Part shown: positions 8,001 through 64,000 of the stretch, one piece after another | How positions within the stretch are numbered: position 1 is the first letter of the stretch | Layout: each line of letters begins with the position of its first letter | Source: Paraliobacillus zengyii | Lineage (GTDB): Bacteria > Bacillota > Bacilli > Bacillales > Amphibacillaceae | Direction: 5' to 3' | DNA length: 64,000 nucleotides | Assembly (NCBI RefSeq): GCF_003268595.1 | Contig: NZ_CP029797.1 | Coordinates: forward strand, 1,571,501-1,635,500 | Position numbers and translations under genes: made by a program | The notes under the pieces: model-generated | What the model was told of the DNA's origin: nothing | Seen by the model: the letters and a program-made list of their open reading frames with translations, nothing else | Databases searched by the model: none

Positions 8001-8555
8001 TCAATATTCGTACTTGAGAGAAACTGCGACGTAGATTTCTTACTCACTCCACAATTGAAATGGGATCGCTTTCCGTGGGCACGGCTTCAGCTAACTCGGA
8101 TAAGCAAAAACCGCTTTCCGAGTGGATCTTCAGCCCGCGCTGTTCCCACTGGAGTCTCACCCATTTCAATTGCTCCGCTAGTTTTGTTTATAAATAAGTA
8201 AAGCGTTTCCTATTGCATACTGAATTAAAACGTCAGCAACTATATTAGTAAGTGAAAAATATATCAGTTTTCAATCTTCAATGTCAAAAACGTTATAACG
8301 TTTTGAAATTAGTTGCTCTAATCAGTGAAAGAAGCAAATGGGTGACACTCTAGTGGGAACAGCACAAGCCGAAGATCCACTAGGTAAAGTGTTTTTCTTT
8401 ACCTAGTTAGCTGAGGCTGTGCCCACAGAAAGGGAGACCATTTGCTTCTGTAGCGGGTATTATGTCGCAGTTGATGACAATTTTGACGCAAGGTATGTTA
8501 CGTCAGAGTTTATAAAAATTTAGTAATAAACAGTCTGTTCTTAATATTAATTAGC
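8001..8555. repeat. Composite palindromic element, copy 1 (most complete)
   Basis: The gap between the deacetylase gene and speA is filled by a GC-richer element. AACTGCGAC (8022-8030) is followed by palindromic unit A (about 8047-8182), a roughly 150-base AT-rich spacer, unit B in inverted orientation (8331-8458), and GTCGCAGTT (8464-8472). Outer arms of unit A are ACAATTGAAATGGG and CCCATTTCAATTG. Central arms of unit B are CTAGGTAAAG (8380-8389) and CTTTACCTAG (8397-8406). Flank similarity to the copy at 18 kb extends past both ends. No convincing coding frame, transposase or target duplication is visible. Confidence 0.85.
8287..8304. promoter_or_regulatory. 18-bp perfect palindrome in the element spacer
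   Basis: AAAACGTTATAACGTTTT is self-complementary. It lies in the spacer between the two palindromic units of copy 1. It looks like a protein-binding site, but no gene starts next to it and I assign no regulator. Confidence 0.3.
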
Positions 8556-8580
8556 GTTCCTTCGTTGTACGTGCATGTTT

Positions 8581-10053
8581 TTATGTTATTGGTTTCATTT
8601 CTTTAATGACATGGATCGTTTGAAGTGTATCATCTTCTAAACCTTGGACAGGTAAACCTGCAGCTAAATTTTGTTTAATATATTCTAAATTTTCTTCGGT
8701 AATAATCTCTCCTGGAATAAAGATAGGAATGCCAGGTGGATAAACCATAATGGATTCCGCACTAGTTCTTCCAGCAGCTGCTTCTAATGGAACAGTCTCT
8801 GATTCAGCATAAAACGCATCACGTGGCGTTATACTTAACAGGGGAATAGCAGGAATGGTAACATCTATTAGATTGTCTGTAGACGACTTTTGATGCGATT
8901 TTTCTAGGTGCTGCAATGCCTGTACTAATAAACTTGTTTCTTTACTCGAATCGCCAGGTGTAATGATGCAAAGTATATTGTACATATCAGATAATTCAAC
9001 TTCGATATTATACTGTTTTCGTAACCATACCTCAACATCATAACCTGTAATACCAAGTTGTTTTACAGAAATAATTAATTTCGTTGGATCATAACCAAAT
9101 GTTGCTTCACTACCTAACATTTCTTTACCAGCACACAAAAGGTGTGGAATTTTATTTATCTCTTTTCGAGTTGTTTCTGCTAGTAGTAATGTTTCATCTA
9201 ATAATTGTTTCCCATTGATAGCTAATTGTTTACGGGCAACATCAAGTGAAGCAAGTAATATATAGGATGTTGATGTTGTTGTTAACATCGATAAAACACT
9301 TTGTACACGAGAATGTGAAACTAATCCCTCTTTTAAATTCAGAACAGAACTTTGGGTTAGGGAGCCACCAAGTTTATGAACACTCGTTGCAGCTAAATCT
9401 GCACCAGCTTGCATCGCAGAGAGTGGTAACTCATCGTGAAAATGAATATGCACGCCGTGCGCTTCATCAACTAGTACGGGTATCTTATGACTGTGGGCGA
9501 TTTCAACAATACGTTGTAAATCAGCTGCAATCCCAAAATAAGTCGGGTTAATCACAAAAACCCCTTTAGCATCTGGATGTGCTTCGAGTGCTCTATTTAC
9601 AGATTCAGGTGTAATCCCATGGGCAATTCCAAGTTTATTATCTAACTCTGGATGAACAAAGATTGGAATAGCACCAGCGAAAATAAGTGCAGTTGTTACG
9701 GATTTGTGAATGTTACGTGGTACAATAATTTTATCACCAGGGCCACAGACGCTTAGAACCATAGCCATAATTGCTCCACTTGTCCCTTGTACGGAGAAGA
9801 AAGTATAATCGGCACCAAATGCTTGTGCAGCTAAATCTTGTGCTTGTTTAATCATTCCTTGTGGATGGTGCAAGTCATCTAATGGTTCGATATTTATTAA
9901 GTCGATTGATAGTGCATTTTCTCCTATAAAGGATCGAAAAGTTGGATCCATTCCTACTCCCTTTTTATGACCTGGTATGTGAAATGGAATAGGATTATTT
10001 TCAGCATGTTTTTTTAATCCTGTAAATAAAGGTGTTTCATGTTGTGCTTGCAT
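8581..10053 (-). CDS. speA: Arginine decarboxylase, Orn/Lys/Arg decarboxylase family
   Basis: PLP enzyme converting arginine to agmatine, first step of spermidine synthesis in Bacillus. The start is set at 10053 (MQAQHETPLFTGLKK) because AGAGAGGT lies just upstream, and the resulting 490 residues equal the B. subtilis SpeA length; the open frame runs further upstream but without support. Motifs: PFHIPGHKKG near the N-terminus, FSVQGTSGA, LVDEAHGVH, and the PLP lysine in SVHKLGGS. The C-terminal domain carries YPPGIPIFIPGE. Sequence and neighbourhood match speA rather than the aminotransferase-like yaaO paralogue. It is divergent from yktA. No clear terminator lies at its 3' end before the repeat element. 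Confidence 0.93.
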   Translation of the reverse strand: MQAQHETPLFTGLKKHAENNPIPFHIPGHKKGVGMDPTFRSFIGENALSIDLINIEPLDDLHHPQGMIKQAQDLAAQAFGADYTFFSVQGTSGAIMAMVLSVCGPGDKIIVPRNIHKSVTTALIFAGAIPIFVHPELDNKLGIAHGITPESVNRALEAHPDAKGVFVINPTYFGIAADLQRIVEIAHSHKIPVLVDEAHGVHIHFHDELPLSAMQAGADLAATSVHKLGGSLTQSSVLNLKEGLVSHSRVQSVLSMLTTTSTSYILLASLDVARKQLAINGKQLLDETLLLAETTRKEINKIPHLLCAGKEMLGSEATFGYDPTKLIISVKQLGITGYDVEVWLRKQYNIEVELSDMYNILCIITPGDSSKETSLLVQALQHLEKSHQKSSTDNLIDVTIPAIPLLSITPRDAFYAESETVPLEAAAGRTSAESIMVYPPGIPIFIPGEIITEENLEYIKQNLAAGLPVQGLEDDTLQTIHVIKEMKPIT

Positions 10054-10175
10054 AAAGGCTACCTCTCTTTGTAAAATATAAATGATAGTGATAGAAAACA
10101 AATGAATTATAGCAAATTAAAATGTGAATTACTAGTTAGCGATTCACTATGCATAGAAGAAAGGACGGTTATAAT

Positions 10176-10445
10176 ATGTCATATAGTTATCCAATAGATC
10201 CATCATGGAGTACAACAGATGTAATCGATGTCGTAAACTTTATATCAATTGTTGAGAAAGCACATGAAGATGGTGTTAAACGTGAGGACATTATGTTAGC
10301 TTATACAAAGTTTAAACAAATAGTTCCATCTATGAGCGAAGAAAAACAAATTGATAAAAAATTTGAAAAGGATACAGGTTACTCAATTTATCGTGCAATC
10401 AAGCAAGCTAAATCCGCAAAAAAAGGTGAACGCGTTAAAATGTAA
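10176..10445 (+). CDS. yktA: UPF0223 family protein YktA
   Basis: Small soluble protein of 89 residues with no known activity. The sequence SYSYPIDPSWSTTDVIDVV, then EKAHEDGV and the C-terminal FEKDTGYSIYRAIKQAK, are hallmarks of the UPF0223 family. The start is the ATG at 10176, after AAAGGACGG; an upstream in-frame ATG would add a tail absent from the family. Predicted mostly helical. Position between speA and yktB matches B. subtilis. Confidence 0.88.
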   Translation: MSYSYPIDPSWSTTDVIDVVNFISIVEKAHEDGVKREDIMLAYTKFKQIVPSMSEEKQIDKKFEKDTGYSIYRAIKQAKSAKKGERVKM

Positions 10446-10451
10446 ATAAAA

Positions 10452-10491
10452 TTACTGTTTTTGTATAGCCTAGGTTATACAAAAACAGTAA
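10452..10491. terminator. Bidirectional terminator between yktA and yktB
   Basis: Perfect hairpin with 16-base arms (TTACTGTTTTTGTATA and its complement) around an eight-base loop containing CCTAGG. The A/T-rich outer arms give U-runs in both directions, serving the two convergent genes. Confidence 0.88.
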
Positions 10492-10504
10492 TAACATGTA
10501 GACC

Positions 10505-11122
10505 TTAAATCGTGTCTAAACTGGAGCGATAAAAAGGTATTAATGTATCAATTGTTTCTTTTATATGGTCGATTAGTTCCTTGCCATTCATATCAATAGC
10601 TTCTGTAGGGGAAATATGACGGCCAACTAAAAACTCAGCTTTTTTTACATCACGAAACCGTTCTAGATTGGTTTCAGTTAATTCCTTGATCGAAAAAGCA
10701 TCCTTTTTCATATGATCAAGTGAGACAACGAAATCCTTAGGGAGCTCTTGTAATTCATCCAATTGTTTTATAAACTGTTTTGCTATCTTTTCTTTATATG
10801 GTAGTTCATAAATGAACGCGAGCCATATGAAAATATGGTCATCAAACAAGCCAACTTGAAAATGAGGGAGCATTTTATAACCGCGTTTACTATGTGCAAC
10901 AGCTAGCCATGTATCATTTGGTGGGTTAACAGAACGACGTGCATGTCTTGCAATATGTAAGAACATTTCGTTCCCTAACGTAGCAGATAAATGTGTAGCT
11001 AATTCTGTTCCTATAATTTCGAATTTTGGTTGAATCCGTTGTTGGATGGCCTCCATTCTATTTTCTAAACCATCAATTTGGAATGTGTCAAAGTCTTTTT
11101 GTTCAAATCCATTAAACGTCAT
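10505..11122 (-). CDS. yktB: UPF0637 family protein YktB
   Basis: Soluble protein of 205 residues from a family of unknown function with solved structures but no assigned role. Recognised by FNGFEQKDFDTF at the start, HIARHARRSVNPPNDTWLA in the middle and the YKMLPHFQVGLFDDHIFIW block. The start ATG follows AAAGGTGA. Convergent with yktA, divergent from suhB, same arrangement as B. subtilis. No signal peptide or membrane segment. Confidence 0.9.
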   Translation of the reverse strand: MTFNGFEQKDFDTFQIDGLENRMEAIQQRIQPKFEIIGTELATHLSATLGNEMFLHIARHARRSVNPPNDTWLAVAHSKRGYKMLPHFQVGLFDDHIFIWLAFIYELPYKEKIAKQFIKQLDELQELPKDFVVSLDHMKKDAFSIKELTETNLERFRDVKKAEFLVGRHISPTEAIDMNGKELIDHIKETIDTLIPFYRSSLDTI

Positions 11123-11267
11123 AGTTATTCACCTTTCTACTTCTTTAATAGCTTCTATTTTACCATAAACCAACATGATCTTGCATTATTTACGTTGGAA
11201 AGATGCATACATATCAATTTTCTGCTACTATAAACGAAAAGCAACTCTTGAAATGGAGGCTAAAAAT

Positions 11268-12071
11268 ATGGATATTACGAATAGAGATCAAATATATCAG
11301 TTTGCAAAAGAATGGGTACTAGAAGCCGGTGAGCATATTCGAAATGTAATTGACGAACCATTAACCATTGATACAAAGTCAAATCCAAATGACCTTGTAA
11401 CACAAATGGATCGAAATACGGAAGAATATTTTGCGAAAAAGATTAAAGGCACTTTCCCGGCACATAAATTACTGTCAGAAGAAGGTTTTGGTGATAATTT
11501 AGAAACATTGGATGGAACGGTGTGGATTATTGATCCCATTGATGGCACAATGAATTTCGTTCACCAAAAAAGAAATTTCGCTATTTCAGTTGGAATCTAC
11601 CAAGATGGTGTTGGTGAAATTGCGTTTATTTATAATGTGATGGAAGATATTCTATATCATGCAAAAAAAGGACAAGGTGCATTTAAGGATATCGTAAAGT
11701 TACCGAAACTAGATGAAAAGGTGACGTTAGATCAAAGTATTTTGTTAATTAATAGTTTATGGAGTGGAGAAAATAAACGAATTAACCACGAAAAAATTCA
11801 AGATCTTGTTAGAAAAGTCAGAGGAACACGTTCATATGGATCAGCAGCTCTAGAATTTGCTGGAATTGCTGAAGGCGTACTAGATGGATACATTTCCATG
11901 AAGTTATATCCTTGGGATTTTGCAGCTGGTGTTATTTTAATCGAAGAAGTTGGTGGTACAACATCGCAGGCTAATGGTAAAGCTTTAAATTTCCTAACAG
12001 AAAATACTGTTTTCTCAGGGAACTTCCAAATAGCTAAGGAGATTATAGACAATTACATAGAACTAAAATAG
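11268..12071 (+). CDS. suhB: Inositol monophosphatase family phosphatase
   Basis: Mg2+-dependent, lithium-sensitive-type phosphatase of the IMPase/FIG superfamily; B. subtilis YktC (SuhB) hydrolyses inositol-1-phosphate. Metal ligands are visible: EE in LLSEEGFG (about 71-72), DPIDGTMNF (89-97) and the C-terminal PWDFAAG. Start is the ATG at 11268 after TGGAGG, giving 267 residues; the longer upstream frame adds an unrelated segment. Substrate range in this family is broad, so the true in-cell substrate is uncertain. Followed by a terminator shared with ylaI. Confidence 0.9.
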   Translation: MDITNRDQIYQFAKEWVLEAGEHIRNVIDEPLTIDTKSNPNDLVTQMDRNTEEYFAKKIKGTFPAHKLLSEEGFGDNLETLDGTVWIIDPIDGTMNFVHQKRNFAISVGIYQDGVGEIAFIYNVMEDILYHAKKGQGAFKDIVKLPKLDEKVTLDQSILLINSLWSGENKRINHEKIQDLVRKVRGTRSYGSAALEFAGIAEGVLDGYISMKLYPWDFAAGVILIEEVGGTTSQANGKALNFLTENTVFSGNFQIAKEIIDNYIELK

Positions 12072-12073
12072 CG

Positions 12074-12126
12074 AAAAAAGAAGATCCCATTATCTCCTAT
12101 TACTGGAGGAAGGGATCTTCTTTTTT
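12074..12126. terminator. Bidirectional terminator between suhB and ylaI
   Basis: AAAAAAGAAGATCCC and its complement, with an inner TCTCC/GGAGG stem. Its right arm encodes the last residues of ylaI. Confidence 0.85.
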
Positions 12127-12306
12127 ACGTTCTTGATAAAACTTGAACTTTCCTGTTGCAAGTCTTTTTTTTGTTTTTTCTCCAATGCGATCGGAACAGC
12201 TTGGACATAAATATAAATGTTTCCGACGGTTTCTTAATCGTTTTGCTAGAGGAGAGTCAGGATCGATCGTATCAATTGAATCACATATTGGACATTTAAC
12301 TTGCAT
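12100..12306 (-). CDS. ylaI: YlaI family zinc-ribbon protein
   Basis: Protein of 68 residues with two CxxC pairs, CPIC (about 5-8) and CPSC (about 34-37), which should hold one zinc ion. The middle SPLAKRLRNRRKH and the C-terminal ATGKFKFYQ match the DUF2197/YlaI family. Function unknown. ATG follows GAGGTG. Same location as in B. subtilis between yktC and ylaJ/ylaN, although the intervening ylaA-H genes are absent here. Confidence 0.82.
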   Translation of the reverse strand: MQVKCPICDSIDTIDPDSPLAKRLRNRRKHLYLCPSCSDRIGEKTKKRLATGKFKFYQERKKEDPFLQ

Positions 12307-12508
12307 CTTACCACACCTCTATTAAATATATATCGTATTTGCTTATTTACTTAAATCATATGGGATTAACCCTTAATTAATAGTTTATCACAGTTTTACT
12401 TATATAATAAGTTTTTATGTAACAAAATCTTTATTATACCTTTGTTTGAGATTTTGAAATAAAGGGTAAAATTGTATAGATAGTGTATAAAAGAAGGGTT
12501 GGTTATTA

Positions 12509-12733
12509 ATGAAGAAAACAATAGTATATAGTATTGTTGGTCTATTAGCGACTTACTTTATGACAAATAAAAGAATACGAAGAGTACTGGAGTCAAATAT
12601 GGAAAAAGAAGCAGCTTTTTTTCCAATTGAAGAAGCAGGAGAACCAGAGACAGATAACCCAGAAAATGCAAATATGGTTGATGAGGGTTCGCAATTTGGC
12701 GTGAAATACTATAATAACTTACAAGAAGAATAG
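12509..12733 (+). CDS. Small membrane-anchored protein of unknown function
   Basis: 74 residues. The N-terminus (about 4-20, TIVYSIVGLLATYFM) is hydrophobic and could be one membrane segment or an uncleaved signal. The rest is acidic and soluble. I do not recognise the family. The start ATG has AGAAGGG upstream. It ends in LQEE-stop inside a perfect palindrome shared with the convergent ylaJ. Real gene likely because of start signal, codon use like neighbours and the terminator. Confidence 0.6.
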   Translation: MKKTIVYSIVGLLATYFMTNKRIRRVLESNMEKEAAFFPIEEAGEPETDNPENANMVDEGSQFGVKYYNNLQEE

Positions 12734-12755
12734 ACAAATTTGTCTATTCTTCTTG
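12722..12755. terminator. 34-bp perfect palindrome covering two stop codons
   Basis: The sequence from 12722 (CAAGAAGAATAGACAAA and its exact complement) is a perfect palindrome with no loop. It contains the stop codons of both the 74-residue gene and ylaJ and codes the Glu-Glu ending of each protein. A bidirectional terminator is likely, although the U-tracts are short. Confidence 0.75.
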
Positions 12756-13346
12756 ATTAAGATGGTTATTTGATTGTTCTTCTTGAATATCTTCTAATTC
12801 TTTTTCTTCATTTTCTGGAATTGACTGTTTATTAGAGTCTTTTTCACCTTGATTTGTGTTTTCAGGTGGTAACTCTGGCATATATCGGCCTACAATGGCA
12901 GATAATTCTTCCATAACTCCACTTACTGGATCACCAGACTGTACACTACGGGCCATGGCTTTAATTCGTTCTGTAGCATCTGCATCCGCAATAACCATTG
13001 CAGTCTTTCCATAAGGATCGTCATGTAATGCTTCTGTAACAGCGTATTTGATAGATCCAACTCTTGTCCGATCTATTTCTTTATCTACGTCTATTCCAAC
13101 TACCGCATAAGGACCAGCAATAATTGCCGTTGCTTCATTAACATCAGGTACATTATTTGCTAAATTTGCTAAATGTTTTGCGATTTCTTGATTTGATCCA
13201 TCCTCATTTTGTGATACTTCAGAATCTTTTACATGTAGGACATGATCCTCGTTTCCTTGATTAGCTAAATTCTCTTCTTCTTCTTGCCCCTGACAACCTG
13301 CAAGGATAAAAAATATGGATAAAAAGATCATCGTATATTTTATCAA
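12744..13346 (-). CDS. ylaJ: YhcN/YlaJ family sporulation lipoprotein
   Basis: Predicted lipoprotein of 200 residues found in spores; in B. subtilis YlaJ and YhcN contribute to germination. The signal peptide ends with lipobox ILAGC. The conserved domain covers about 55-150: IAKHLANLANNVPDVNEATAIIAGPYAVVGIDVD, KYAVTEALHDDPYGKTAMV and DADATERIKAMA. The C-terminal 40 residues are acidic and low complexity. Start is TTG with AAGGAGGA nine bases upstream. A forespore (sigma-G) promoter would be expected from the known family but I could not identify one. Confidence 0.85.
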   Translation of the reverse strand: MIKYTMIFLSIFFILAGCQGQEEEENLANQGNEDHVLHVKDSEVSQNEDGSNQEIAKHLANLANNVPDVNEATAIIAGPYAVVGIDVDKEIDRTRVGSIKYAVTEALHDDPYGKTAMVIADADATERIKAMARSVQSGDPVSGVMEELSAIVGRYMPELPPENTNQGEKDSNKQSIPENEEKELEDIQEEQSNNHLNQEE

Positions 13347-13572
13347 ATATATCTTCCTCCTTATAATTTGTGATATGTTTGTACATTTTCTTGTGCTTAT
13401 TTTTCGTTAAAAATAGAAAGTTATACAGTTTAACGATTATTAATTTAGCTTTGAGAAGATACGCAACATATTTATATACAAAAAATTCTATGTAAATCGT
13501 CGGAATCATCTTGCTTTTTAGGATTATTAACGCTAATATAAATGAAAGAAGTTCTTTAACGGAGGGGATTGA

Positions 13573-13857
13573 GTGATACCTGAAGTAATCGTAAGTAAAG
13601 CAGAAAAAGCCTATGTACTTTTACAAGAAGACGCAGATAAAATCCTGAAGCTTATAAGAGTTCAAATGGATAATTTAACAATGCCTCAATGTCCACTATA
13701 CGAGGAAGTGTTAGACACACATATGTTTGGCCTTTCGAGAGAGATTGATTTTGCGGTTCGTTTAAACTTAATCTCAGAAGAAGAAGGTAAACAACTTTTG
13801 GAAAGTTTAGAAAGACAATTGAATTTGTTACACGAAGCTGCACAACAATCGATGTAG
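13573..13857 (+). CDS. ylaN: YlaN, small iron-linked regulator protein
   Basis: Protein of 94 residues. The block [19 protein letters not shown] followed by [16 protein letters not shown] is diagnostic of the YlaN family. In Staphylococcus aureus and B. subtilis YlaN has been tied to iron homeostasis through interaction with Fur; before that it was listed as an essential protein of unknown role. Start is GTG after GGAGGGG. Predicted all-helical. It stands directly upstream of ftsW as in B. subtilis, with its own terminator between. Confidence 0.9.
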
Positions 13858-13880
13858 TTGTGTCTCTCTGTCTTAGATAA

Positions 13881-13907
13881 AGCCTTTGCCAATGGCAAGG
13901 TTTTTTT
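13881..13907 (+). terminator. Terminator after ylaN
   Basis: CCTTTGCC/GGCAAGG stem with a three-base loop and seven T residues. Confidence 0.8.
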
Positions 13908-13944
13908 ACTTTTTAACACATATTTTTGGTGAAGGAGTAAGGTA

Positions 13945-15129
13945 ATGAAGCAAAAATGGAAAATGTTTGACTTTACACTAGCTTTTACGCCATTAATTCT
14001 CGCTATTTTTGGTATTATAATGATATATAGTTCAAGTATGGTTATTGCAGTAATGGACGGTAAGGCACCTAGTTATTATATGCTCAAACAGTTGCAATGG
14101 TTTATTATCGGTTTAGTTTTTTTCATTTTCTGTAGTTTTTTTAACTATCGTCATTATCAAAAGGTAATGAAATTCATTATAATAGGTCTAATTTTAATGT
14201 TAGTAGTGGTTCTTTTTGAAGATCCGGTGAAAGGAGCACGATCATGGCTTTATATTGGTCCATTTTCAGTACAACCTGCTGAATTTGTGAAATTAGGATT
14301 AATTATGTATTTAGCTTCTGTATATGCTAAAAAACAAAGTTATCTAAATAATTTCACTGCAGGTGTGTTGCCTCCACTTGTGATGACTGGTATTTTATTA
14401 GGCTTGATTTTTTTTCAACCAGATATAGGAACAGCAGCAATTATTTTTTTAATCGCTTGTTCTGTTATCTTTAGTGCAGGAATTAAACTTAGACATCTAT
14501 CCTTATTATTTGTGTTTGGTGCAGTCTTTATTGTCTTTGTAGGTTCTGATATGTTGACTACTGAGCGTCTTTCAAGATTTACAGGTGCATACCAACCTTT
14601 TACTAACCCTGAAGATGGTGGTTATCAGCTGATCCAATCGTATATTGCAATTGGAACAGGTGGATTGGACGGGTTAGGTTTAGGACAAAGCGTACAGAAA
14701 CTTGGTTATTTAACAGAAGGATATAATGATTTTATTATGGCTGTAATAGCAGAAGAACTTGGTTTTATAGGTGTTATTATTGTAATCGGTTTGTTAGCTA
14801 TTATTGTCTTAAGAGGTTTATTTATCGCAAAAATTTGTCAAGATAGTTTTGGTTCCTTATTAGCTATTGGAATTTCCTCCATGGTTGGGATCCAAGCATT
14901 TATTAATTTAGGTGCAATAAGTGGACTGTTGCCAATTACAGGAGTAACATTACCATTTGTTAGTTATGGAGGATCATCTTTATTAGTATTAATGATCTCA
15001 ATGGGTATCTTAAATAATGTCGCACGTCACGTAAAAAAATCATTATCTGATTCTGCCTCAGGACACATTAATGATCAACAAGAAACAAAGGATAGGAGAA
15101 TACGCCCTGTTCGTGCGTATAATAGTTAA
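13945..15129 (+). CDS. ftsW: FtsW, septal peptidoglycan polymerase (SEDS)
   Basis: Ten-helix SEDS glycosyltransferase that polymerises lipid II at the septum together with a class B PBP (PbpB here). Seen: YSSSM in the first helices, GARSWLYIGPFSVQPAEFVKLG, the long extracellular loop with RFTGAYQPF, LGLGQSVQKLGYLTEGYNDFI, AEELGFIG and LPFVSYGGSSL. 394 residues, about normal. It is the vegetative paralogue by position (after ylaN); the second SEDS gene at 43.4 kb is spoVE. In B. subtilis pycA follows; here it does not. Confidence 0.92.
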   Translation: MKQKWKMFDFTLAFTPLILAIFGIIMIYSSSMVIAVMDGKAPSYYMLKQLQWFIIGLVFFIFCSFFNYRHYQKVMKFIIIGLILMLVVVLFEDPVKGARSWLYIGPFSVQPAEFVKLGLIMYLASVYAKKQSYLNNFTAGVLPPLVMTGILLGLIFFQPDIGTAAIIFLIACSVIFSAGIKLRHLSLLFVFGAVFIVFVGSDMLTTERLSRFTGAYQPFTNPEDGGYQLIQSYIAIGTGGLDGLGLGQSVQKLGYLTEGYNDFIMAVIAEELGFIGVIIVIGLLAIIVLRGLFIAKICQDSFGSLLAIGISSMVGIQAFINLGAISGLLPITGVTLPFVSYGGSSLLVLMISMGILNNVARHVKKSLSDSASGHINDQQETKDRRIRPVRAYNS

Positions 15130-15141
15130 TTATTAATTATG

Positions 15142-15174
15142 AAAGTCCCAACTAGTAAAAAGCTGGGGCTTTTA
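15142..15174 (+). terminator. Terminator after ftsW
   Basis: AAAGTCCCA...TGGGGCTTT hairpin followed by T residues. Confidence 0.85.
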
Positions 15175-15331
15175 ATTTGTGAACTTTTTGTGCCAAAATG
15201 TATAAAAACCTTGCAAATTTAACTTTTCTTTGCTAAAAATAATAACGTATGAAGATAGAATGTATATTTATTTAAAAACAGAAAATTGATTACTTATAAA
15301 TTTTTGAGTGACAAAAGGGATGTGAAATACA

Positions 15332-16755: not shown

Positions 16756-16761
16756 TCAATA

Positions 16762-18006: not shown

Positions 18007-18235
18007 TCAATATTCAGAGTGGAGAGAAACTGCGACGTAGATTCTATACCCGCTCCACAATTGAAATGGGCTCGCTTTCCGAGTGGATCTTCAGCCCGCG
18101 CTGTTCCCACAGAAAGGGAGCCCATTTGCTTCCGTAGCGGGTGTTAAGTCGCAGTTGATATAAATCTTGACGCAAGGAATATTAAGTTGGAGTCTATAGT
18201 CATTTAGTCATAAACAATCCTCCTTTAGAAAGCTG
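18007..18235. repeat. Composite palindromic element, copy 2 (collapsed)
   Basis: Contains AACTGCGAC (18028-18036) and GTCGCAGTT (18148-18156) only about 120 bases apart. The left part matches unit A of copy 1 and the right part matches unit B, joined at CCCAC. A segment between two CGCTTTCCG direct repeats of unit A is also missing. The 50-80 bases outside each end still align with copy 1. The rest of the 17852-18372 gap is AT-rich with no gene seen. Confidence 0.82.
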
Positions 18236-21581: not shown

Positions 21582-21605
21582 AGGTTTAACTACTTAAATG
21601 AACAA

Positions 21606-21643
21606 AAAAAGCCTGCAGATCAATTAATCTGCAGGCCCTTTTT
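21606..21643 (+). terminator. Terminator after ylbG
   Basis: GCCTGCAGAT/ATCTGCAGGC perfect arms with a six-base loop and trailing T residues. Confidence 0.9.
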
Positions 21644-21664
21644 AACTTCTATATTAGAAATCAA

Positions 21665-21780
21665 AAAGGCAAAGGGAGAGGAGAAACCGGAGGAAGTACT
21701 TATGGGGAAACGTAAGCCTTCTCCGTCTTCAAGAAGTAACCAAAGCCTTGTTTAGCTACCTCACTAGCCTAGTATAGACG
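21665..21780 (+). ncRNA. ylbH (rsmD) leader RNA
   Basis: A purine-rich, structured stretch lies in the 346-base gap before rsmD. CGGAGGAAG pairs with CTTCTCCG around an inner hairpin CTTATG/CGTAAG with loop GGGAAA. AGGC near the start can pair with GCCT near the end. This corresponds to the ylbH leader, a conserved RNA reported upstream of this gene in Bacillus; its mechanism is not known. The assignment rests on position plus my recall of the motif. Confidence 0.72.
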
Positions 21781-25443: not shown

Positions 25444-25475
25444 GAACCCCCATTAGTATGACTAATGGGGGTTCT
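25444..25475 (+). terminator. Terminator after ylbL
   Basis: GAACCCCCATTAGT/ACTAATGGGGGTTC with a two- to three-base loop; T-rich tail. Confidence 0.9.
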
Positions 25476-25544: not shown

Positions 25545-25985
25545 AACTGAGACTTAATAGAATTTCCTGCCCCGCTCCTCAAGTGAAATTGACTCCCTTT
25601 CCGCAGGCACGGCTTCAGCTAACTCGAAAACTAAGAACGTTTCCGAGTGGATCTTCAGCCCGCGCTGTTCCTGCAGGAGTGTCGCCAATTTCACTTGATA
25701 CGCTAGTTTATTACACAGTAATATTAGAGAGCATAAATTAATCACATGTCGAAAAGGTACGCTATCAAGCGAAGAAAGCAAATGGATGACACTCCTCGAA
25801 AATAAAAAACGATTTTCGTGCGATGTGAACTCTTAGAAGCATTCCTTGTCCTGTGGGAACAGCAAATGTTTTAGGGTGGGATGAGTAATCCCAATCCCAC
25901 AAGTTGATGATCCACTCGGAAAGAGACTTTTGGACCTGCGATTACTCGCCACATCAAGATCGTTTGCTGACGAAGCGGGTAAGGA
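25545..25985. repeat. Composite palindromic element, copy 3
   Basis: Unit A (25571-25706) is well preserved, with outer arms CAAGTGAAATTG and CAATTTCACTTG. Unit B (25771-25980) is inverted and degenerate; it carries inserted sequence including a GGGTGGGAT/ATCCCACCC-like hairpin near 25875-25900, and ends in GAAGCGGGT. Part of the 935-base gap between ylbL and tmcAL, which has no credible gene. Confidence 0.75.
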
Positions 25986-26020
25986 TCTTATAATGGTGAA
26001 ATGGAAATGTTAACACAAAT

Positions 26021-26152
26021 TAGCGAAGGAAAAATGCGAGACTCCTATGGGAAAGGAACAGTCTGAAGACCCCGCAGTGAGCGTTTTTTGCTCACGAGGA
26101 GGCTGAAGCGTTCCCCATGGAAAGCGAGTGTTTTTCTGCAGCGACAGATTAA
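26021..26152. repeat. Single palindromic unit, canonical form
   Basis: Stand-alone unit with GCGAGACTCC at the left, GTCTGAAGACCCCGC, a central hairpin GTGAGC/GCTCAC, GAGGAGGCTGAAGC, and GGAAAGCGAGT at the right. Its central arms differ from all other copies but are complementary to each other. This version resembles repeats I remember from many Bacillaceae genomes. Confidence 0.75.
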
Positions 26153-26205
26153 CAAGGAATTATATAGCATAACCTTTATAATCTATGTCGTAGTTTCGTT
26201 CGTTC

Positions 26206-44664: not shown

Positions 44665-45200
44665 AGACACGCTACGTAAGCAAATGGTCTCCCTTTCCGC
44701 AGGCACGGCTTCAGCTAACTCGGAAACTAAGTACGTTTCCGAGTGGATCTTCAGCCCGTGCTGTTCCTGCTGGAGAGTCGACCATTTGCTTCCTCCGCTG
44801 GTTTGTAGCAATAAAAAAATGCAGAAATGGCGAATCTATTTTATTGGCAACTAATATAAAAAGAGTGATTACAGAGATTCCAATTATTAATAAAATAACT
44901 ATTTATTTTCTGGGAATCTCGACCACCTCAGTCGCTAATTTAGTTACCAGCCCAATTAACAAAATATTGTTTATTACTTGTAATTGCCTACAAACAAATG
45001 AAGTATATTAGCGAAGATTGCAAATGGTTGTGCCCACGGAAAGGAAGACCAATTGCTACCGTAGCATGGTAGCAATCAGTAAATTATTTTGGTAGCCGGT
45101 AACAATGTTACCTCGCAGTTGATGATAATTCCTACTCAAGGAACGTTATGTCAGAGTGTATGAATGTTTGTAATATTACAGTCTTTTAGAAAGCAGCTCT
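44665..45200. repeat. Composite palindromic element, copy 4
   Basis: Unit A (44665-44803) is intact: outer arms AAGCAAATGGTC and GACCATTTGCTT, central hairpin CTCGGAAAC (44719-44727) and GTTTCCGAG (44735-44743). Unit B (about 45008-45062) is only a remnant (GTGCCCACGGAAAGGAAGACC). CTCGCAGTT (45112-45120) and the following 60 bases align with the right flank of copies 1 and 2. The 44487-45580 gap, where B. subtilis has murG and murB, has no other gene I can support. Confidence 0.8.
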
Positions 45201-55950: not shown

Positions 55951-55955
55951 GCAAA

Positions 55956-56387: not shown

Positions 56388-56393
56388 GTGGTC

Positions 56394-56660
56394 ATGTATA
56401 TGCTTTATGAAATAATTACAGGTGCAATTGAACTGTATAGTTATGTGTTAATTATCTATATTTTAATGTCTTGGTTTCCAGGAGCAAGAGAATCATCGTT
56501 TGGAAATATCATATCTAGATTAAGTGAACCATATTTGGAACCATTTCGTAAAATCATCCCACCATTGGGAATGATCGATATTTCACCAATAGTAGCTATA
56601 TTTGTACTTAGGTATTTAATACCAAGTGGAATTAACGTATTGTTTGGTTGGTTTATTTAA
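56394..56660 (+). CDS. ylmG: YggT family membrane protein YlmG
   Basis: 88 residues with two membrane helices: ELYSYVLIIYILMSWFPGA and ISPIVAIFVLRYLIPSGI, joined by LSEPYLEPFRKIIPPLG, the YggT signature. Linked to division or osmotic tolerance in other organisms; role uncertain. ATG at 56394, nine bases after AGAGGTGG. Confidence 0.9.
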   Translation: MYMLYEIITGAIELYSYVLIIYILMSWFPGARESSFGNIISRLSEPYLEPFRKIIPPLGMIDISPIVAIFVLRYLIPSGINVLFGWFI

Positions 56661-56689
56661 TTGTTTTAATGGAGTGAAGAGAAGATACA

Positions 56690-57463: not shown

Positions 57464-57542
57464 TTAAAATTTTAGCAGGAATTGTACTAATTTTGTCGAA
57501 TTATATAAAGAAGCTATAAAACTTCACAAGGAGGTGGCCGAT

Positions 57543-58058
57543 GTGCCATTGACACCATTGGATATTCATAATAAAGAATTTTCTCGAGGATTTAGAGGTT
57601 ACGATGAGGATGACGTAAACGAATTTTTAGACCAGATTATTAAAGATTATGAGTTGGTAATAAGGGATAAAAAGGAATTGAAGAATCAAGTAGAAGACAT
57701 GAAAGATAGACTTGGTCATTTCTCTAATATTGAAGAGACATTAAATAAATCAATTCTAATTGCACAAGAGACTGCAGAAGAAGTAAAAGGAAACGCGAAT
57801 AAAGAATCAAAACTCATTATTAAAGAAGCAGAAAAAAATGCAGATCGTATTATTAATGAAGCACTTCAAAAATCAAGAAGTATAGCAATTGAAGTAGAAG
57901 AATTAAAGAAACAAGCAAAAGTATTCCGTACACGCTTGAAGATGTTAGTAGAAGCTCAACTTGAATTAGTTGAAAATGACGATTGGGATGGTTTATTCCA
58001 AACACGTATGGATGAAGAGTATGAAAATGATGAAGAAGTAGAAACAAATCGTTACTAA
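57543..58058 (+). CDS. divIVA: Polar/septal organiser DivIVA
   Basis: 171 residues. N-terminal membrane-curvature domain (MPLTPLDIHNKEFSRGFRGYDEDDVNEFLD), then long coiled coils (NIEETLNKSILIAQETAEEV, EAEKNADRIINEAL). GTG at 57543 gives the conserved MPLTP start; the GTG at 57534 lies within the AAGGAGGTGG ribosome site. Last gene of the ylm cluster before ileS. Confidence 0.95.
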   Translation: MPLTPLDIHNKEFSRGFRGYDEDDVNEFLDQIIKDYELVIRDKKELKNQVEDMKDRLGHFSNIEETLNKSILIAQETAEEVKGNANKESKLIIKEAEKNADRIINEALQKSRSIAIEVEELKKQAKVFRTRLKMLVEAQLELVENDDWDGLFQTRMDEEYENDEEVETNRY

Positions 58059-58061
58059 AAC

Positions 58062-58090
58062 TTGACGTTTTTATCGTTAATACATATAAT
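58062..58090 (+). promoter_or_regulatory. Sigma-A promoter of ileS
   Basis: TTGACG, 17 bases, TATAAT directly after the divIVA stop; it drives the T-box leader. Confidence 0.88.
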
Positions 58091-58097
58091 GGATTAA

Positions 58098-58392
58098 CTT
58101 AAAGCTATTATAATTTATAAGATTTAATTTTCTATAACAAAGAAAAGCAATGCAAGGGAAAGTAGAATAGATTTAGACTGTTAATAAGCGAGTTAGGGTT
58201 GGTGTAAGCCTGACACAGTATCTATTTTAAAATCACCCTTAAGCTTCCTACTTGAAAGGTTTCGAGTAAAGTAGGACGTGTCCATCACGTTACGATGCTA
58301 AGCGGATAAAAATCTTAAGAACGTTTTTATCTAGTAAGGGTGGTACCGCGAGTCTTCTCGTCCCTTTAGGGATCTTGAGGGCTTTTTTTGTT
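58098..58392 (+). promoter_or_regulatory. T-box riboswitch of ileS
   Basis: tRNA-sensing leader. The T-box sequence AAGGGTGGTACCGCG (58336-58350) is exact and precedes a terminator stem (CGTCCCTTTAGGGA onwards, then a T run). Stem I includes GTTAGGGTTGG and a probable specifier ATC at 58220-58222 (in CAGTATCTATT), matching isoleucine. Uncharged tRNA-Ile should stabilise the antiterminator and allow ileS expression. Confidence 0.93.
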
Positions 58393-58441
58393 GAAAAAAA
58401 TAAGTAAAAGTAATGTTACGATCATTCAAGGAGGAAGAAAA

Positions 58442-61195
58442 ATGGATTATAAAGACACGCTATTAATGCCAAAAACAGAATTCCCAATGCGCGGTAATTT
58501 GCCTAATAAAGAACCGAAAATGCAAGAAAAATGGGATGAGGACAACATGTATCAACAAGTACAAGCGCGTACAGAAGGTAGACCGCTATTTGTTTTACAT
58601 GATGGCCCTCCGTACGCAAATGGTGATTTGCATATGGGTCATGCCTTAAATAAAGTACTTAAAGATTTTATTGTTAAATACAAATCAATGTCAGGATTCC
58701 ATGCGCCATATGTTCCAGGATGGGATACACATGGACTGCCAATTGAGCAAGCATTGGCTAAAAAGAAAGTTAATCGTAAGAAGATGTCAATTGCTGAATT
58801 TAGACAAAAGTGTGCTGAATATGCGCTAAAACAAGTGGACAATCAACGTATTCAATTCAAACAACTTGGTGTACGGGGAGATTGGGATAACCCATATATT
58901 ACATTAGAAAAAGAATATGAAGCTGCACAAATCCAAGTATTTGGTGACATGGCGAAAAAGGGATACATTTATAAAGGGTTAAAACCTGTTTACTGGTCAC
59001 CATCGTCTGAATCTGCATTAGCTGAAGCAGAAATTGAATACCAGGATAAACGTTCAGCATCAATCTACGTGACTTTTGATGTAAAAATTCCAGGTGACTT
59101 GCTCCAAGGAGATGAGAAGTTCATTATTTGGACAACAACACCTTGGACAATTCCTGCAAACTTAGCAATCGCACTGCATCCTGATTTAACATACGCAGTA
59201 GTAAAAGTAAATGATGCGAAGTATATTGTTGCAGAAGAAATGATCGAGCAAGTGAAAGAAACACTAGAATGGGAAAAAACAGAGGTTGTCCAAACATTTA
59301 AAGGGCAAGAAGCAGATCATCTAGTTGCAAAACACCCTTTCTATGACCGTGATTCATTAGTTATTTTAGGTGATCACGTTACGACTGAAAGTGGTACTGG
59401 ACTTGTTCACACAGCGCCAGGACACGGTGAAGATGACTTTATCATTGGTAAGAAGAATGGCTTAGAAGTTCTTTGTCCTGTTGATGAAAAGGGTGTGTTT
59501 ACTGACGAGGCACCTGGATTTGAAGGATTATTTTACGATGCTGCAAATAAAGAAATTACTGAGAAGCTTGAGGAAGTTGGGGCACTACTAAAACTTACTT
59601 TCATTACACACTCGTATCCACATGACTGGCGTACGAAGAAACCGACCATTTTCCGTGCAACAAATCAGTGGTTTGCATCAATTAAAGATTTCCGGGAAGA
59701 TATTCTTGCTGAAATCAACAGAGTTAACTGGGTACCAAAATGGGGCGAAACGCGTCTTTATAATATGGTGCGTGATCGAGAAGATTGGTGTATTTCACGT
59801 CAACGTGCATGGGGAGTTCCTATTCCTGTATTCTACGGGGAAGATCGTCTACCAATTATTACGGATGAAACGATTCAACATGTTTCTAACTTATTCCGTG
59901 AACATGGTTCAAATATTTGGTTTGAATGGGATACGAAAGATTTATTACCAGAAGGATTTACTTCAGTTCAGAGTCCAGGAAATACATTTACAAAAGAAAT
60001 GGACATCATGGATGTATGGTTTGATTCAGGTTCATCTCATCAAGGTGTTCTAAATGAACGTCCTGAATTACAACGTCCAGCTGATGTATATTTAGAAGGT
60101 TCTGATCAATATCGTGGATGGTTTAATTCCTCAATTTCTACAGCAGTGGCTGTAACTGGTAAAGCGCCATTTAATACAATCATTAGTCATGGTTTTGCTT
60201 TAGACGGTAAAGGAAGAAAAATGAGTAAATCGGTAGGTAATGTGGTTGTTCCATCAAAAATCATGAAACAATATGGTGCTGATATTTTACGTTTGTGGGT
60301 TGCATCAGTCGATTATCAAGCAGACGTTCGTATTTCGGATGAAATTATTAAGCAAGCATCAGAAGGTTATCGTAAAATCCGTAATACATTCCGCTTCATG
60401 CTTGGAAATATCGCTGATTTTGATCCGGCTATTCATACGATCAAAGATAAGGATTTGCAAGAAGTAGATCAATATATGCAAGTTCGTTTACAGAGCTTAA
60501 TTAAAAAAGTAACAAAATCATATGAGGAATATGATTTCTCAAGTGTTAATCAAGCAATTCACAATTTCTGTTCGATTGAATTAAGTGCATTTTATTTAGA
60601 TTTTGGAAAAGATGTACTATATATCGAAGCTGAAGATAGTTCAAGACGTCGAAGTATTCAAACAGTTTATTATGAGATCGTTACTAGCTTAGTTAAACTA
60701 TTAGCACCGATTCTTTCGCACACAGCAGAAGAAGTTTGGGAACACATTCCACACGTACAAGAGAAAAGTGTTCAATTAACAGATATGCCTGTTGCCAGAG
60801 AAATTGCTAATCAAGAGCAAATTCAAGCAAAATGGGATCATTTCATGACAATTCGTGATGATGTTCTAAAAGCATTAGAAGAAGCACGAGCTGAGAAAGT
60901 AATTGGTAAATCTTTAGAAGCAAAACTGCAAATTGTTGCAAAAGATGCTGATACAAAAGAATTGCTTACAAGTATGGAGGATATCCATCAATTGTTTATT
61001 GTCTCCGAAGTTGAAGTAGTAGCAGAATTAACGGATGTTAAAGAATTTGAACAAGTTTTTGTTAAAGTTGAAAAACATTGCGCTGAGCGTTGTGAACGTT
61101 GTTGGGTAGCTTCCGAAACAGTTGGAGAAGATCCAGCACATCCAGCACTATGTACAAGATGTGCAGCGATTGTTACAGAACATTATCCCGCATAA
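58442..61195 (+). CDS. ileS: Isoleucyl-tRNA synthetase
   Basis: Class I synthetase of 917 residues (B. subtilis 921). HIGH-type motif [20 protein letters not shown]1 editing domain ([25 protein letters not shown]), KMSKS motif [10 protein letters not shown], and the C-terminal zinc finger CERCW ... CTRC. Start is ATG 58442 ([10 protein letters not shown]) after AAGGAGG; an upstream TTG lies in the T-box terminator. The KMSKS, zinc finger and length fit the bacterial (mupirocin-sensitive) type. Confidence 0.97.
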
Positions 61196-61208
61196 TACAG
61201 ATTTAAAT

Positions 61209-61246
61209 AAAAACCATCAAATTGCACGTTGATTTGATGGTTTTTT
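61209..61246 (+). terminator. Terminator after ileS
   Basis: AAAAACCATCAAAT/ATTTGATGGTTTTT perfect arms with nine-base loop. Confidence 0.93.
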
Positions 61247-61401
61247 ATAATTATTAATCTTTTGCATGCTAACTGGTAATAAGAAGCGTCAGAATTTATA
61301 GACACTATTAGTACACACGTCAACTTATTCTCTTTTCACTAACATATTTTATTTGAATATATTATTTCAGAACTGTTTTTCAGAAAAGGGGGTAGTGGTT
61401 T

Positions 61402-61779
61402 ATGTATTATGTTTATCAGCCCGGTTACTATTATTATCCTGATTATATGTTCGATAGGCCGTATGATCAAAGTATAAGGCAGCAGTTTCCTCCAATTAAT
61501 CCGAACTTATTGTATCAATCAGCAAATGAAACTAGAAGACTCATGAAAGATGCTAATATGGTTCTTGATAAGCTGTCAAATTCAAAGGAATTTAACACCG
61601 AACTTATGTATGCTGCACAATCTTCAAATAAAAAAGAGGTTAATCGCTTAATTAATTCATTGGGTTTAGCATCTGATGTAACAATAGATTTTAATCCAGA
61701 TGGATTACATCTGGAATTTAAATCACAAGTGGAATCAAAAGAGTGTTGTCACCTAAAGATTGCGCTCCGTTGGCGTTAA
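61402..61779 (+). CDS. Tyr-rich small protein of unknown function
   Basis: 125 residues. The N-terminus is Tyr/Pro-rich (MYYVYQPGYYYYPDYMFD), then a helical middle (NETRRLMKDANMVLDKL) and a beta-like end with CCHLKIALRWR. I have an impression of similar small Bacillaceae proteins with a Tyr-rich start and an LRWR-type ending, but no named family. Composition suggests a spore coat or surface role; that is a guess. AAAAGGGGGT precedes the ATG. In B. subtilis lspA-region genes follow ileS, not this one. Confidence 0.65.
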   Translation: MYYVYQPGYYYYPDYMFDRPYDQSIRQQFPPINPNLLYQSANETRRLMKDANMVLDKLSNSKEFNTELMYAAQSSNKKEVNRLINSLGLASDVTIDFNPDGLHLEFKSQVESKECCHLKIALRWR

Positions 61780-61983
61780 AAGGGATCTTATGTGCTAAAA
61801 GCAAATAAATAAATCAACTTGCTCATTTGAAAAATGGGAGCTATTCATTGGTTGGTTGCGTTTGAACTATATTTATTCTATTACATGTCCATATTAAAAA
61901 AGGCCTACTAGCTAAAAGATTAATACCTATGACGGAATTAACATACATTGCGAGGTAACTTACCTTAAGTCACAATGTTGATT

Positions 61984-62092
61984 AACTGCGACATAACAGA
62001 ATTCCCTGACCTGCTTCTCAAGTGAAATTGACTCCCTTTCCGCAGGCACGGCTTCAGCTAACTCGGAAACAAAGTACGTTTCCGAGTGGATC
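61984..62092. repeat. Composite palindromic element, copy 5, left part
   Basis: AACTGCGAC (61984-61992) and the left half of unit A (CAAGTGAAATTGACTCC, GGCACGGCTTCAGC), then the central hairpin ACTCGGAAAC/GTTTCCGAGT (62061-62087). Interrupted after GGATC by a group II intron; it resumes at 63974. The 61780-61983 stretch shows nothing recognisable. Confidence 0.88.
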
Positions 62093-63973
62093 GTGCGCCC
62101 GGCATGGGTTATAACTAGCTGGTGAAAGTCCACTACAGGTTTGGCAGTAGGAACTGTTAGCGAATGGCAAGGGTGTCTATCGTGAGGTAGAATCTGAAGG
62201 AAGCCGGACGCAAAATCCCGAACTGACGAACAGAAACTGTATATAAGGCTGAATCGGAACGGACGAGTTTGCGATCCCTTACAAAGTCCAATACTGCCCA
62301 AATTCCGTACAGTAAATACAGCAGTTACATGGGAGGAAAGTTATAACTCTTACCCGGGGAGGTCTCACGAAGGTCTAATAAGACAATTGTATTAGTGATA
62401 ATACGATGAATTGTGAGAAGTCAGCAGACGCCATAGTAGTTTCTCAATGAAACGAAGGGCAGAACAACCTTAAATCTTGGAAAACAGGGAGGTGTAGACA
62501 TCGCCGCCTAAGCACAGAAAACAGTGTGGTAAAGACCGAATAGATGGCTACCTATGAGTAAATACGTTGGAAACGGAAGGATTCATAGGAGTGTGCAGGC
62601 ATGTCGCATAAGAAATGAAAGAACAAGATAGTATCAACTTAATCGAAAAAGTGATAAAAACGGATAACCTCTGGAAAGCACATGATAAAGTGAAAAGCAA
62701 TAAAGGTGCCCCAGGAATAGATGGGATCACAATAGATGAATTGGAAGATCACATGAAGGGATACTTTGATCACCTACAAAGGAAATTAAGGGATGGAACT
62801 TACGCCCCCCAACCGGTTAAAAGAGTAGCTATTCCAAAGGCAGATGGTTCCAAAAGATATCTAGGGATTCCATGTGCACTTGATAGAGTAGTTCAACAAG
62901 CGATCTTACAAGTCATAGATCCCATCATTGACCCGTATTTTTCTAAATATAGTTACGGCTTCCGGAAAGGGAAAGATGCTCATCAAGCTATTCAAAAAGC
63001 GCAAACCTATTATGAAGAAGGTTACCGAACAATTGTAGACTGTGATCTAAAAAGTTATTTTGATACCATTCATCACCAACGATTGCAATCCTACTTGGAA
63101 TACTTCATCAAAGATAAGATCGTCTTGAAATTGATCTGGAAGTTCCTATGCTCCGGCATTATAGATAGGAACATCTTTATCGAAACCAACGAAGGAGCAC
63201 CGCAAGGTGGCCCACTATCACCAATTTTAGCGAATGTCTATCTCAATCAATTAGATCGCGAACTGGAGAAACGAGGACATCGATTCATTCGATATGCCGA
63301 TGATTTCATTATCTTTGTGAAGAGTCCACGAGCTGGAGAGAGAGTGATGATAAATATCACCGCATTTTTGGAGGGGAAACTTCAATTAACGATTAATCAG
63401 AAGAAAAGTCACGTAACTTCAGCGACAAAAGCGACCTTTCTGGGTTTCCAACTACTAGACTACATGGGAAAGTAGGGTGCCGGCCAAGTCGGTCGGCGAA
63501 GCAGAAGTTCAAAGAGAAACTTAGAACAATGACAAGTCTCAAAAGACCAGGAAAATTCGAAGAAATTGTTGCAGAGATTAATCAAACGATAGTTGGTTGG
63601 ATTAACTACTTCGGAATAGGTTATATGAAGGCATTTATAAAAGAAACCCAACAGTGGTTAAACCGTCGATTAAGACAATTGATATGGAAAAGATGGAAGA
63701 AAACAAAGACGAAGTACAAAAGACTTCGGAAATATGGGATATCACATGTGGATGCGATCAAACTCGCTAGCTCAAGGAAAGGGTATTGGCGATTAGCATT
63801 CAACCATATTATCCATCAAGCCATCTCCATAGAACGTTTAGGGAAATGGGGTCTAAAGGATATGAATATCCTTTACCATATAAGATACTTAAAAGGTTGA
63901 ACCGCCGTATACGGATCCGTACGTACGTACGGTGGTGTGAGAGGTCGGGGCTGTGAAGCCCCTCCTACTCGAT
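62093..63973 (+). mobile_element. Group II intron, probable bacterial class C
   Basis: Complete 1881-bp intron. The 5' end GTGCGCCCGGCATGGG fits GUGYG; the 3' end is AT (AY). Domain V is visible as ACCGCCGTA/TACGGTGGT arms (63901-63936), and domain VI as GGGGCT/AGCCCC (63947-63962). Both boundaries are exact because the interrupted repeat is continuous in copy 4: GTGGATC joins TTCAGCCCG. Insertion is five bases past an inverted repeat, and the intron is short with no endonuclease domain, all class C traits. Splicing and mobility in trans may remain possible although its protein gene is broken. Confidence 0.93.
62615..63900 (+). pseudogene. ltrA: Group II intron reverse transcriptase/maturase, frameshifted
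   Basis: Intron-encoded protein of about 425 residues in two frames. Part 1 (62615-63475) holds RT motifs: KVKSNKGAPGIDGITIDEL, SYGFRKGKDAHQAIQKA, VDCDLKSYFDTIHH, EGAPQGGPLSPILANVYLN and the catalytic RYADDFIIF. It stops after FLGFQLLDYMGK. Part 2 in the next frame continues without loss: KVGCRPSRSAKQKFKEKLRT, then maturase domain X (GWINYFGIGYMKAFIKETQQW) to the end. One missing G in the GGG before AAAG at about 63466-63471 restores the frame (MGKVGCRP). No HNH endonuclease follows. Could be a real mutation or a sequencing slip. Confidence 0.9.
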
Positions 63974-64000
63974 TTCAGCCCGTGCTGTTCCTGCAGGAGT
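63974..64000. repeat. Composite palindromic element, copy 5, right part
   Basis: TTCAGCCCGTGCTGTTCC and CTGCAGGAGT continue unit A after the intron; the window ends inside it. Confidence 0.9.

Follow-up and report, generated by a model that had tools for sequence, protein, structure and literature searches.

A covarying hairpin in probable non-autonomous mobile elements of Paraliobacillus zengyii and other Bacilli

The window analysed here, a 64,000-nucleotide stretch of the Paraliobacillus zengyii genome (contig NZ_CP029797.1, positions 1,571,501 to 1,635,500), contains several copies of a palindromic unit that forms a long imperfect hairpin of about 130 bases. The explanation that we favour, with a probability of roughly 0.57, is that the units sit in non-autonomous elements resembling miniature inverted-repeat transposable elements (MITEs), and that the conserved content of these elements is a structured RNA hairpin. 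The outer and inner stems of the hairpin vary in step; its internal loops are conserved, and on one strand it shows the bulge AACAG and an apical loop rich in U. The hairpin moves from one element family to another, being surrounded by unrelated terminal repeats in different genera. The family is real, widespread and old, fills several kinds of small mobile elements, and is partly known already through tsr24 (RF02577), a small RNA of Staphylococcus aureus to which it is distantly related.

A covariance model, R1, was built from 85 aligned units and used to search the 3.73-Mb genome, where it identified at least 149 units, a lower bound because only 150 candidates were scored. These hits were grouped in 93 clusters, comprising 55 pairs in the order +-, 37 single units, one -- pair and no -+ pair. 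The earlier note, made from the sequence alone, had described a repeating unit of about 135 bp. This unit is real, but the commonest object is an inverted pair of units between terminal repeats (55/93 clusters), and the RNA sense of both paired units reads outward. The note had also proposed a covariance-model search, which recovered units in this genome and in many other Bacilli. By blastn the unit was present in 31 of 61 genomes, own genome included. Model R1 gave matches in 122 of 159 genomes of the order and, in a class-level sample, in 29 of 151 genomes, 24 of the 29 lying outside the order. An exact 20-mer scan of the collection, for which the query was too strict, returned two contigs only, both from Paraliobacillus quinghaiensis. 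The unit was found in one of the plasmid records and in none of the phage records. No description of the hairpin family was found in the literature searched, subscription papers being mostly beyond reach.

Fold, strand asymmetry and relation to tsr24 RNA

Read from its base towards its tip, the unit begins with an outer stem whose sequence varies from copy to copy. Next come the block TTTCC/GGA(G) and a stem that ends in GGGC/..CCC and carries a CTGTT bulge, which reads AACAG on the opposite strand, followed by the stem CACGGCT/AGC.CGTG and an internal loop of TCAGCTAA and TGGATCTTC. The inner stem is again copy-specific, and the apical loop is A-rich on the + orientation and U-rich on the opposite strand. 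Information per column amounted to 0.30 bits in the outer stem and 0.68 bits in the inner stem, and to 1.33-1.59 bits in the loops and the bulge; the two middle stems were conserved like the loops (1.63 and 1.50 bits). Despite their low conservation, the outer and inner stems retained pairing in 84.1% and 91.6% of cases, respectively.

Covariation was analysed over 85 distinct sequences and 25 predicted pairs. Paired cells made up 94.0% of 2075, compared with 78.0% (standard deviation 0.5) after shuffling and 37-47% when slid. Two-sided changes were found in 362 cells (110 shuffled, at most 51 slid) and in 20 of the 25 pairs (13.6 shuffled, up to 15 slid), and the covariation score was 0.416, versus 0.143 for shuffled and no more than 0.081 for slid versions. 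Neither the 94% pairing nor the 20 two-sided pairs was reached in 500 shuffles. Since the very alignment under test supplied the structure, an advantage for the unslid version, and kinship was ignored, this covariation is strong without being a formal R-scape result. These counts bear out the proposal that arms and central stems change in step between copies.

A fold selected as RNA is expected to tolerate G-U pairs and not A-C mismatches. On the + orientation, positions flanked by pairs held 39 A-C, 4 G-T and 30 other mismatches (72 outer and 61 inner arms, alignment A1). A wider set of 176 arms gave 68, 22 and 73, and when each genome and position was counted once the figures were 50, 21 and 67 (p 0.0008 for A-C versus G-T), with 18 of 29 genomes leaning toward an A-C excess. 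An excess of A-C over G-T on the + orientation means that G-U pairs are carried by the opposite strand. The asymmetry had the same sense for units on both genome strands (23:9 for units on +, 30:10 for units on -), so replication strand bias is no explanation for it. In addition, the tsr24-sense strand folded better in 79 of 85 units, with a mean difference of -6.4 kcal/mol compared with -3.4 kcal/mol in shuffles. Wobble asymmetry and folding energy thus favour one strand, and selection probably acts on a single-stranded fold of the tsr24-sense strand, with RNA as the likely form. The earlier suggestion of selection for a folded hairpin gains support from covariation, wobble asymmetry and folding energy, as a folded single strand.

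A relaxed cmscan of element 1, the paired element at 8.0 kb, matched tsr24 at 40.7 and 30.5 bits, on the - strand for its unit A and on the + strand for its unit B, and the 25.6-kb unit matched at 31.5 bits. All of these window copies (30.5-40.7 bits) fall below the tsr24 gathering cut-off of 50 bits. Among 18 loci from several genomes, tsr24 was matched at E 0.0001 in only two (L124 and L126, 39.5-40.6 bits). In genome G223, loci that had been found with R1 scored 61.7-112.5 bits, above the cut-off, in all five scanned (seven fetched); locus L163 was also above it, and in the same scan tsr24 was matched at E 0.001 in 9 of 15 loci. Hairpin and strand are shared with tsr24, all matches lying on the strand opposite to the + unit for both orientations, and the blocks GACUCC..GGGA.CAG..GAAGA.C and GCUGA..CCC..GGAAAGCG are common to both in the same order. 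Because loci found by R1 pass the cut-off and the loop blocks are shared, the unit is taken as homologous to part of tsr24, though the window copies stand outside formal membership. The earlier statement that no named family was known therefore holds for the window copies by score, but not for the hairpin, given its presumed homology to part of RF02577.

Element ends, mobility and nested modules

In this genome a full element spans about 416-680 bp between AACTGCGACRTA repeats and consists of unit A, an AT-rich spacer and the inverted unit B. The terminal-repeat pattern GAAACTGCGACRTA had 111 genome matches with up to two mismatches, compared with 33 for the reversed control, and 30 of the 45 matches with zero or one mismatch lay just outside a unit end. 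With up to three mismatches, the repeat was found on both sides in 16 of 30 paired elements examined; 15 of these 16 showed, by eye, a GATAGA-like extension at one end and an ATCATC-like one at the other. Ends similar to AACTGCGACRTA were also seen by eye in genomes G023 and G128. An open reading frame (ORF) of at least 120 aa covered only 1 of 43 own-genome elements. The elements have the traits of MITEs: they are short, lack a transposase gene of their own, carry terminal inverted repeats and occur in many copies.

Unit-bearing elements have at least three kinds of ends, namely AACTGCGACRTA in this genome, the IS1182-type GAGGCTGGGACA, and GCTCTGTTAAA with 9-bp duplications. Ends of the GAGGCTGGGACA type flanked units on both sides in G031, G161 and G098 and on at least one side in G132, G157, G124 and G223. 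In G031 and G161 a single unit lies in an element of 285-302 bp with GAGGCYGGGACATAA on the left and GAGGYTGGGACAAAA (reverse complement) on the right, and no duplication was visible in the 10 copies, of 12, for which both ends were located. Full-length insertion sequences (ISs) encoding DDE_Tnp_1_6 (PF13751) have nearly the same ends in G031, G010 and G000 (this genome); the G031 element ends nearly match those of the resident ISs, including the difference between left TAA and right AAA. ISs with near-identical ends exist for the GAGGCYGGGACA type. With IS1272 as the reference, the ISs with PF13751 are putatively IS1182-like. Locus L120 was considered as a parent IS of the G031 elements but rejected, as it proved to be a copy with a unit, into which other sequences were later inserted and which has a gap in its assembly. 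According to PMC5678879, IS1272 replaces stem-loops during transposition and makes no duplications. In genome G115 the element around the unit is 188 bp long and ends in GCTCTGTTAAA. Its 9-bp duplications were perfect in 4 of 7 copies; of the others, one had an 8/9 match, one had shifted ends, and for one an end was not found.

Near-identical, sharp-ended copies were present at separate sites in G031, G161 and G115. At 25.4-26.4 kb of the window, the flanking matches are separated by 1016 bp here and by 139 bp in the sole other genome of the genus, so the element at this site is a lineage-specific insertion or loss. Together with the inverted pairs and the terminal repeats, the empty site and the near-identical copies elsewhere support the earlier proposal of a non-autonomous mobile element. 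As a separate observation, this genome contains 23 PF13751 matches (e.g. L104, L110 and L114), of which six inspected have GAGGCTGGGACATAA-type ends, and PF13751 had no match in the only other genome of the genus.

The units themselves receive insertions. At 62.0 kb a single unit is split by a group II intron (matches to group-II-D1D4 and Intron_gpII). The intron sits at 62.09 kb, just after the inner stem; its ORF with a reverse transcriptase domain stops early, at 63475, and a further one lies at 63529-63900. An IS of the DDE type (PF01609) was found inside units at L083:1380-2930 and L084:1780-3360, at the same GCCGTGCCC motif and flanked, by eye, by an apparent duplication of about 10 unit bases. 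The presence of this IS at the same motif of two different units makes the unit a possible hot spot of insertion. It was rejected as the mobilising partner, since its ends CATAGCCGTCAAGCTAAG differ and it lies within the unit.

A mini-hairpin of about 35 bp, TGGGAYTGCGATTACTCRTCCCA plus a tail, with a covarying stem and the constant loop GAGTAATCGCA, was present in 17 of 18 units chosen, nearly all from the longer ones. The extra length of these longer units had been considered an IS remnant, which proved mostly wrong: an IS end was found in none of the 18, although L002 does show a remnant. The mini-hairpin occurs in both orientations and at three places: next to the bulge, within the apical loop and, judged by eye, on the arm facing the bulge. 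It was seen in own-genome loci L099, L004, L101, L029, L020 and others, in loci L196-L204 of other genomes, and at 25849-25955 of the window. Of 60 family genomes, 24 contained its exact core, the highest count being 153, and none contained a match to the reversed control. Over 37 sites, its stem on the GAGTAATCGCA strand held 14 G-T and 3 A-C. It occurs outside units too, as at L197, a locus between 16S and 23S rRNA; the copies at L197, L199 and L203 lie inside matches to the Bacillaceae-1 RNA (RF01690), with the favoured strand of the mini-hairpin opposite to the model strand. Bacillaceae-1, published as a candidate RNA of Bacillaceae in PMC2864571, is in turn nested in the unit at L120 (65.3 bits) and L199, both times on the unit's RNA-sense strand. 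No earlier description of such nesting of further structured modules in the unit was found in the literature searched.

Weighing of the explanations

According to our favoured explanation, the elements would depend for their movement on transposases that other elements supply in trans. Given no promoter enrichment in the spacers and no intrinsic terminator in element 1 (the one at 25444-25474 falls outside the unit), the RNA would come from read-through from neighbouring genes, with no need of a promoter of its own. The folded hairpin, perhaps bound by protein or resistant to nucleases, may render an insertion into a transcribed gap harmless or slightly useful; this property would keep the structure intact and make it well suited to fill a mobile element. 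The unit could in turn take in further structured modules, such as the 35-bp hairpin and the Bacillaceae-1 RNA, giving rise to nesting.

Several points weigh against this explanation. The benefit of the hairpin is one that we infer. Concerning the strand, 5 of 29 genomes lean the opposite way and 6 of 29 are equal; a looser count over whole local alignments showed little strand difference (A-C 157, G-T 120); and mismatches other than A-C and G-T were about as common as A-C in the 176-arm set (73 vs 68). Moreover, a nearly constant T-G pair (83/85, columns 34/151) is an A-C on the tsr24 strand, and a plain column tally gave 122 G-T versus 67 A-C with that pair and 39 versus 67 without it. In the scan that matched tsr24, microRNA-precursor families appeared at similar E-values far under their own cut-offs; we take MIR7533 (42.6 bits, cut-off 230) and the others as chance matches to a long hairpin, and the tsr24 E-value alone is therefore no proof of homology. 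Concerning mobility, the local AACTGCGACRTA-type elements yielded no definable target duplication in the 30 pairs examined, and no transposase with AACTGCGACRTA ends was present among the loci examined. The Y1 transposase domain PF01797 had no match in this genome (5 of 14 control genomes were positive), and mobilisation by Y1/RAYT was rejected on this ground. As for expression, only 3 of 96 spacer strands scored at least 10 for a promoter, compared with a shuffle mean of 4.1; an own promoter in the spacer, for which the window copy matches 11/12, was rejected on this lack of enrichment.

A broader reading, possible in our view yet doubtful, is that modular structured RNAs form an ecosystem in Bacilli and are mobile without being tied to a particular transposon. 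On this view the 130-nt hairpin, borne by small transposons of three or more unrelated families, would itself carry smaller structured RNAs, including Bacillaceae-1 and the 35-nt hairpin with the constant loop GAGUAAUCGCA. Insertion would be accepted where the fold stays intact, and the unit that persists would be the RNA shape and not the terminal repeats.

The conserved hairpin might instead act as DNA, as a cruciform or single-stranded hairpin seen by transposases and by structure-seeking insertions such as group II introns and ISs, those of the IS1182 type among them. The intron inside the window unit, the DDE-type IS at one motif in the L083 and L084 units, and a transposase fragment shortly beyond the broken unit at L120 are in line with this idea, as is the replacement of stem-loops by IS1272 reported in PMC5678879. 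However, the hairpin occurs with unrelated ends and hence is not the site of one transposase, the strand asymmetry of wobbles is unexpected for duplex cruciforms, and tsr24 is catalogued as RNA; we consider a role as DNA unlikely. Nor do we think it at all likely that the hairpin is a host-useful small RNA (sRNA) or 3′-untranslated region element domesticated from mobile copies in several lineages. Such a role would agree with the Rfam annotation of tsr24 as an sRNA and with the placement of the 43 own-genome elements, which lie in gaps (26 tandem, 11 convergent, 3 divergent, 3 unplaced): convergent gaps are favoured, with 11 convergent and 3 divergent of 40, compared with 4 and 7 among the 41 window gaps of at least 50 bp, the other 30 being tandem. 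This gap bias may nevertheless reflect the removal of promoter-damaging insertions, and high copy number, inverted unit pairs, decayed and chimeric copies, and presence or absence at one locus between two genomes of the genus all speak against domestication.

In a long palindrome one arm can serve to correct the other, and whole arms differ between copies. The arms could accordingly have been kept alike solely through intra-palindrome conversion or template switching, with no selection on folding. This process fails to predict conserved unpaired loops beside freely varying stems, or a strand-specific excess of wobbles, and was already disfavoured; we regard it as highly improbable.

Copies in the window and known systems

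The unit was present at every place named in the earlier note, as judged by repeat finding, reading of the sequence and model hits, and the arm pairs quoted there could be read directly in the window. The locus at 8.0 kb does hold the unit, though as two units and not one. In this element 1, a left terminal repeat GAAACTGCGACGTA (8020-8033, +; genome 1579520-1579533), an exact match to the pattern, is followed by unit A (8043-8177, +; tsr24-sense RNA strand and tsr24 match on -; model 142.3 bits), the inverted unit B (8325-8457, -; tsr24-sense RNA strand and tsr24 match on +; model 127.9 bits) and a right terminal repeat (TCAACTGCGACATA on the - strand; 8461-8474, -; two mismatches). The CTAGGTAAAG stem is part of unit B, the second of the two. 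At 18049-18138 (+) lies an internally deleted, chimeric-looking unit (23.9 bits), with a terminal repeat at 18026-18039.

The unit at 26.0 kb had been called a lone one; it is the inverted partner, as unit B of element 3 (26019-26148, -; 93.5 bits; terminal repeat at 26184-26197 with one mismatch), of unit A at 25571-25702 (+; 120.3 bits; tsr24 on -). Between them is a third, broken piece (25849-25932, -; 23.4 bits) with, by eye, a mini-hairpin-like insert. Element 4 has one good unit (44668-44798, +; 120.9 bits), and an apparent decayed partner near 45017-45066 was noticed by eye only, without a model hit. Element 5 starts with a terminal repeat TTAACTGCGACATA (61982-61995, +; two mismatches). 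The model hit its unit from 62010 to 62092 (+), up to the intron (about 62093-63973, +), which lies between GGATC and TTCAGCC, and again from 63974 to 64000 (+), where the unit runs past the window end; its partner lies outside the window, at genome positions 1635682-1635815. The motif GGATCTTCAGCCCG had 11 matches with up to three mismatches, compared with a shuffle mean of 1.3, and 11 was reached in 0/100 shuffles; seven matches, four of them exact, were within units and four outside. Apart from these elements, the window contains a T-box leader (58141-58368) upstream of a 935-aa ORF at 58388, a ylbH leader (21602-21728), and a 244-bp direct duplication (3842-4085 and 4163-4406; 94% identical, spacing 321) inside the ORF at 3839-5452.

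Screens for sRNAs can lose dispersed repeats such as these. In an S. aureus RNA-seq study, intergenic regions present at least 10 times in the genome were discarded (PMC5496865), and in another study multi-copy small transcripts were reported to be mostly near transposases (PMC2873960). If a single RNA family does extend from Staphylococcus to this Bacillaceae-type genome on several transposon carriers, this family would rank as a structured RNA very common in Bacilli, and the conservation of its loops would indicate a shared cellular partner that could be fished for. The nesting opens the question of whether selection for RNA folding acts on transposon cargo.

Compared with tsr24, the elements of this genome differ in their ends and in having two inverted units. 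A likeness to MITEs of IS1182-family ISs (IS1272) lies in the GAGGCTGGGACA-type ends beside units in other genomes, which resemble the ends of ISs in G000, G031 and G010, whereas the window elements end in AACTGCGACRTA. In three loci the Bacillaceae-1 RNA is likewise a host of the 35-bp mini-hairpin, but it is itself a different hairpin. Repetitive extragenic palindromic (REP) sequences, with the related BIMEs and the REPINs associated with the RAYT transposase, are palindromic intergenic repeats that often form inverted pairs, as these units do; the units described here differ in their length of about 130 nt and their internal loops, and this genome has no Y1 transposase. By description, the units can also be likened to the dispersed intergenic stem-loop repeats of other Bacilli, bcr1 of the Bacillus cereus group and Bhal-1 of B. 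halodurans, as presented in PMC2267715.

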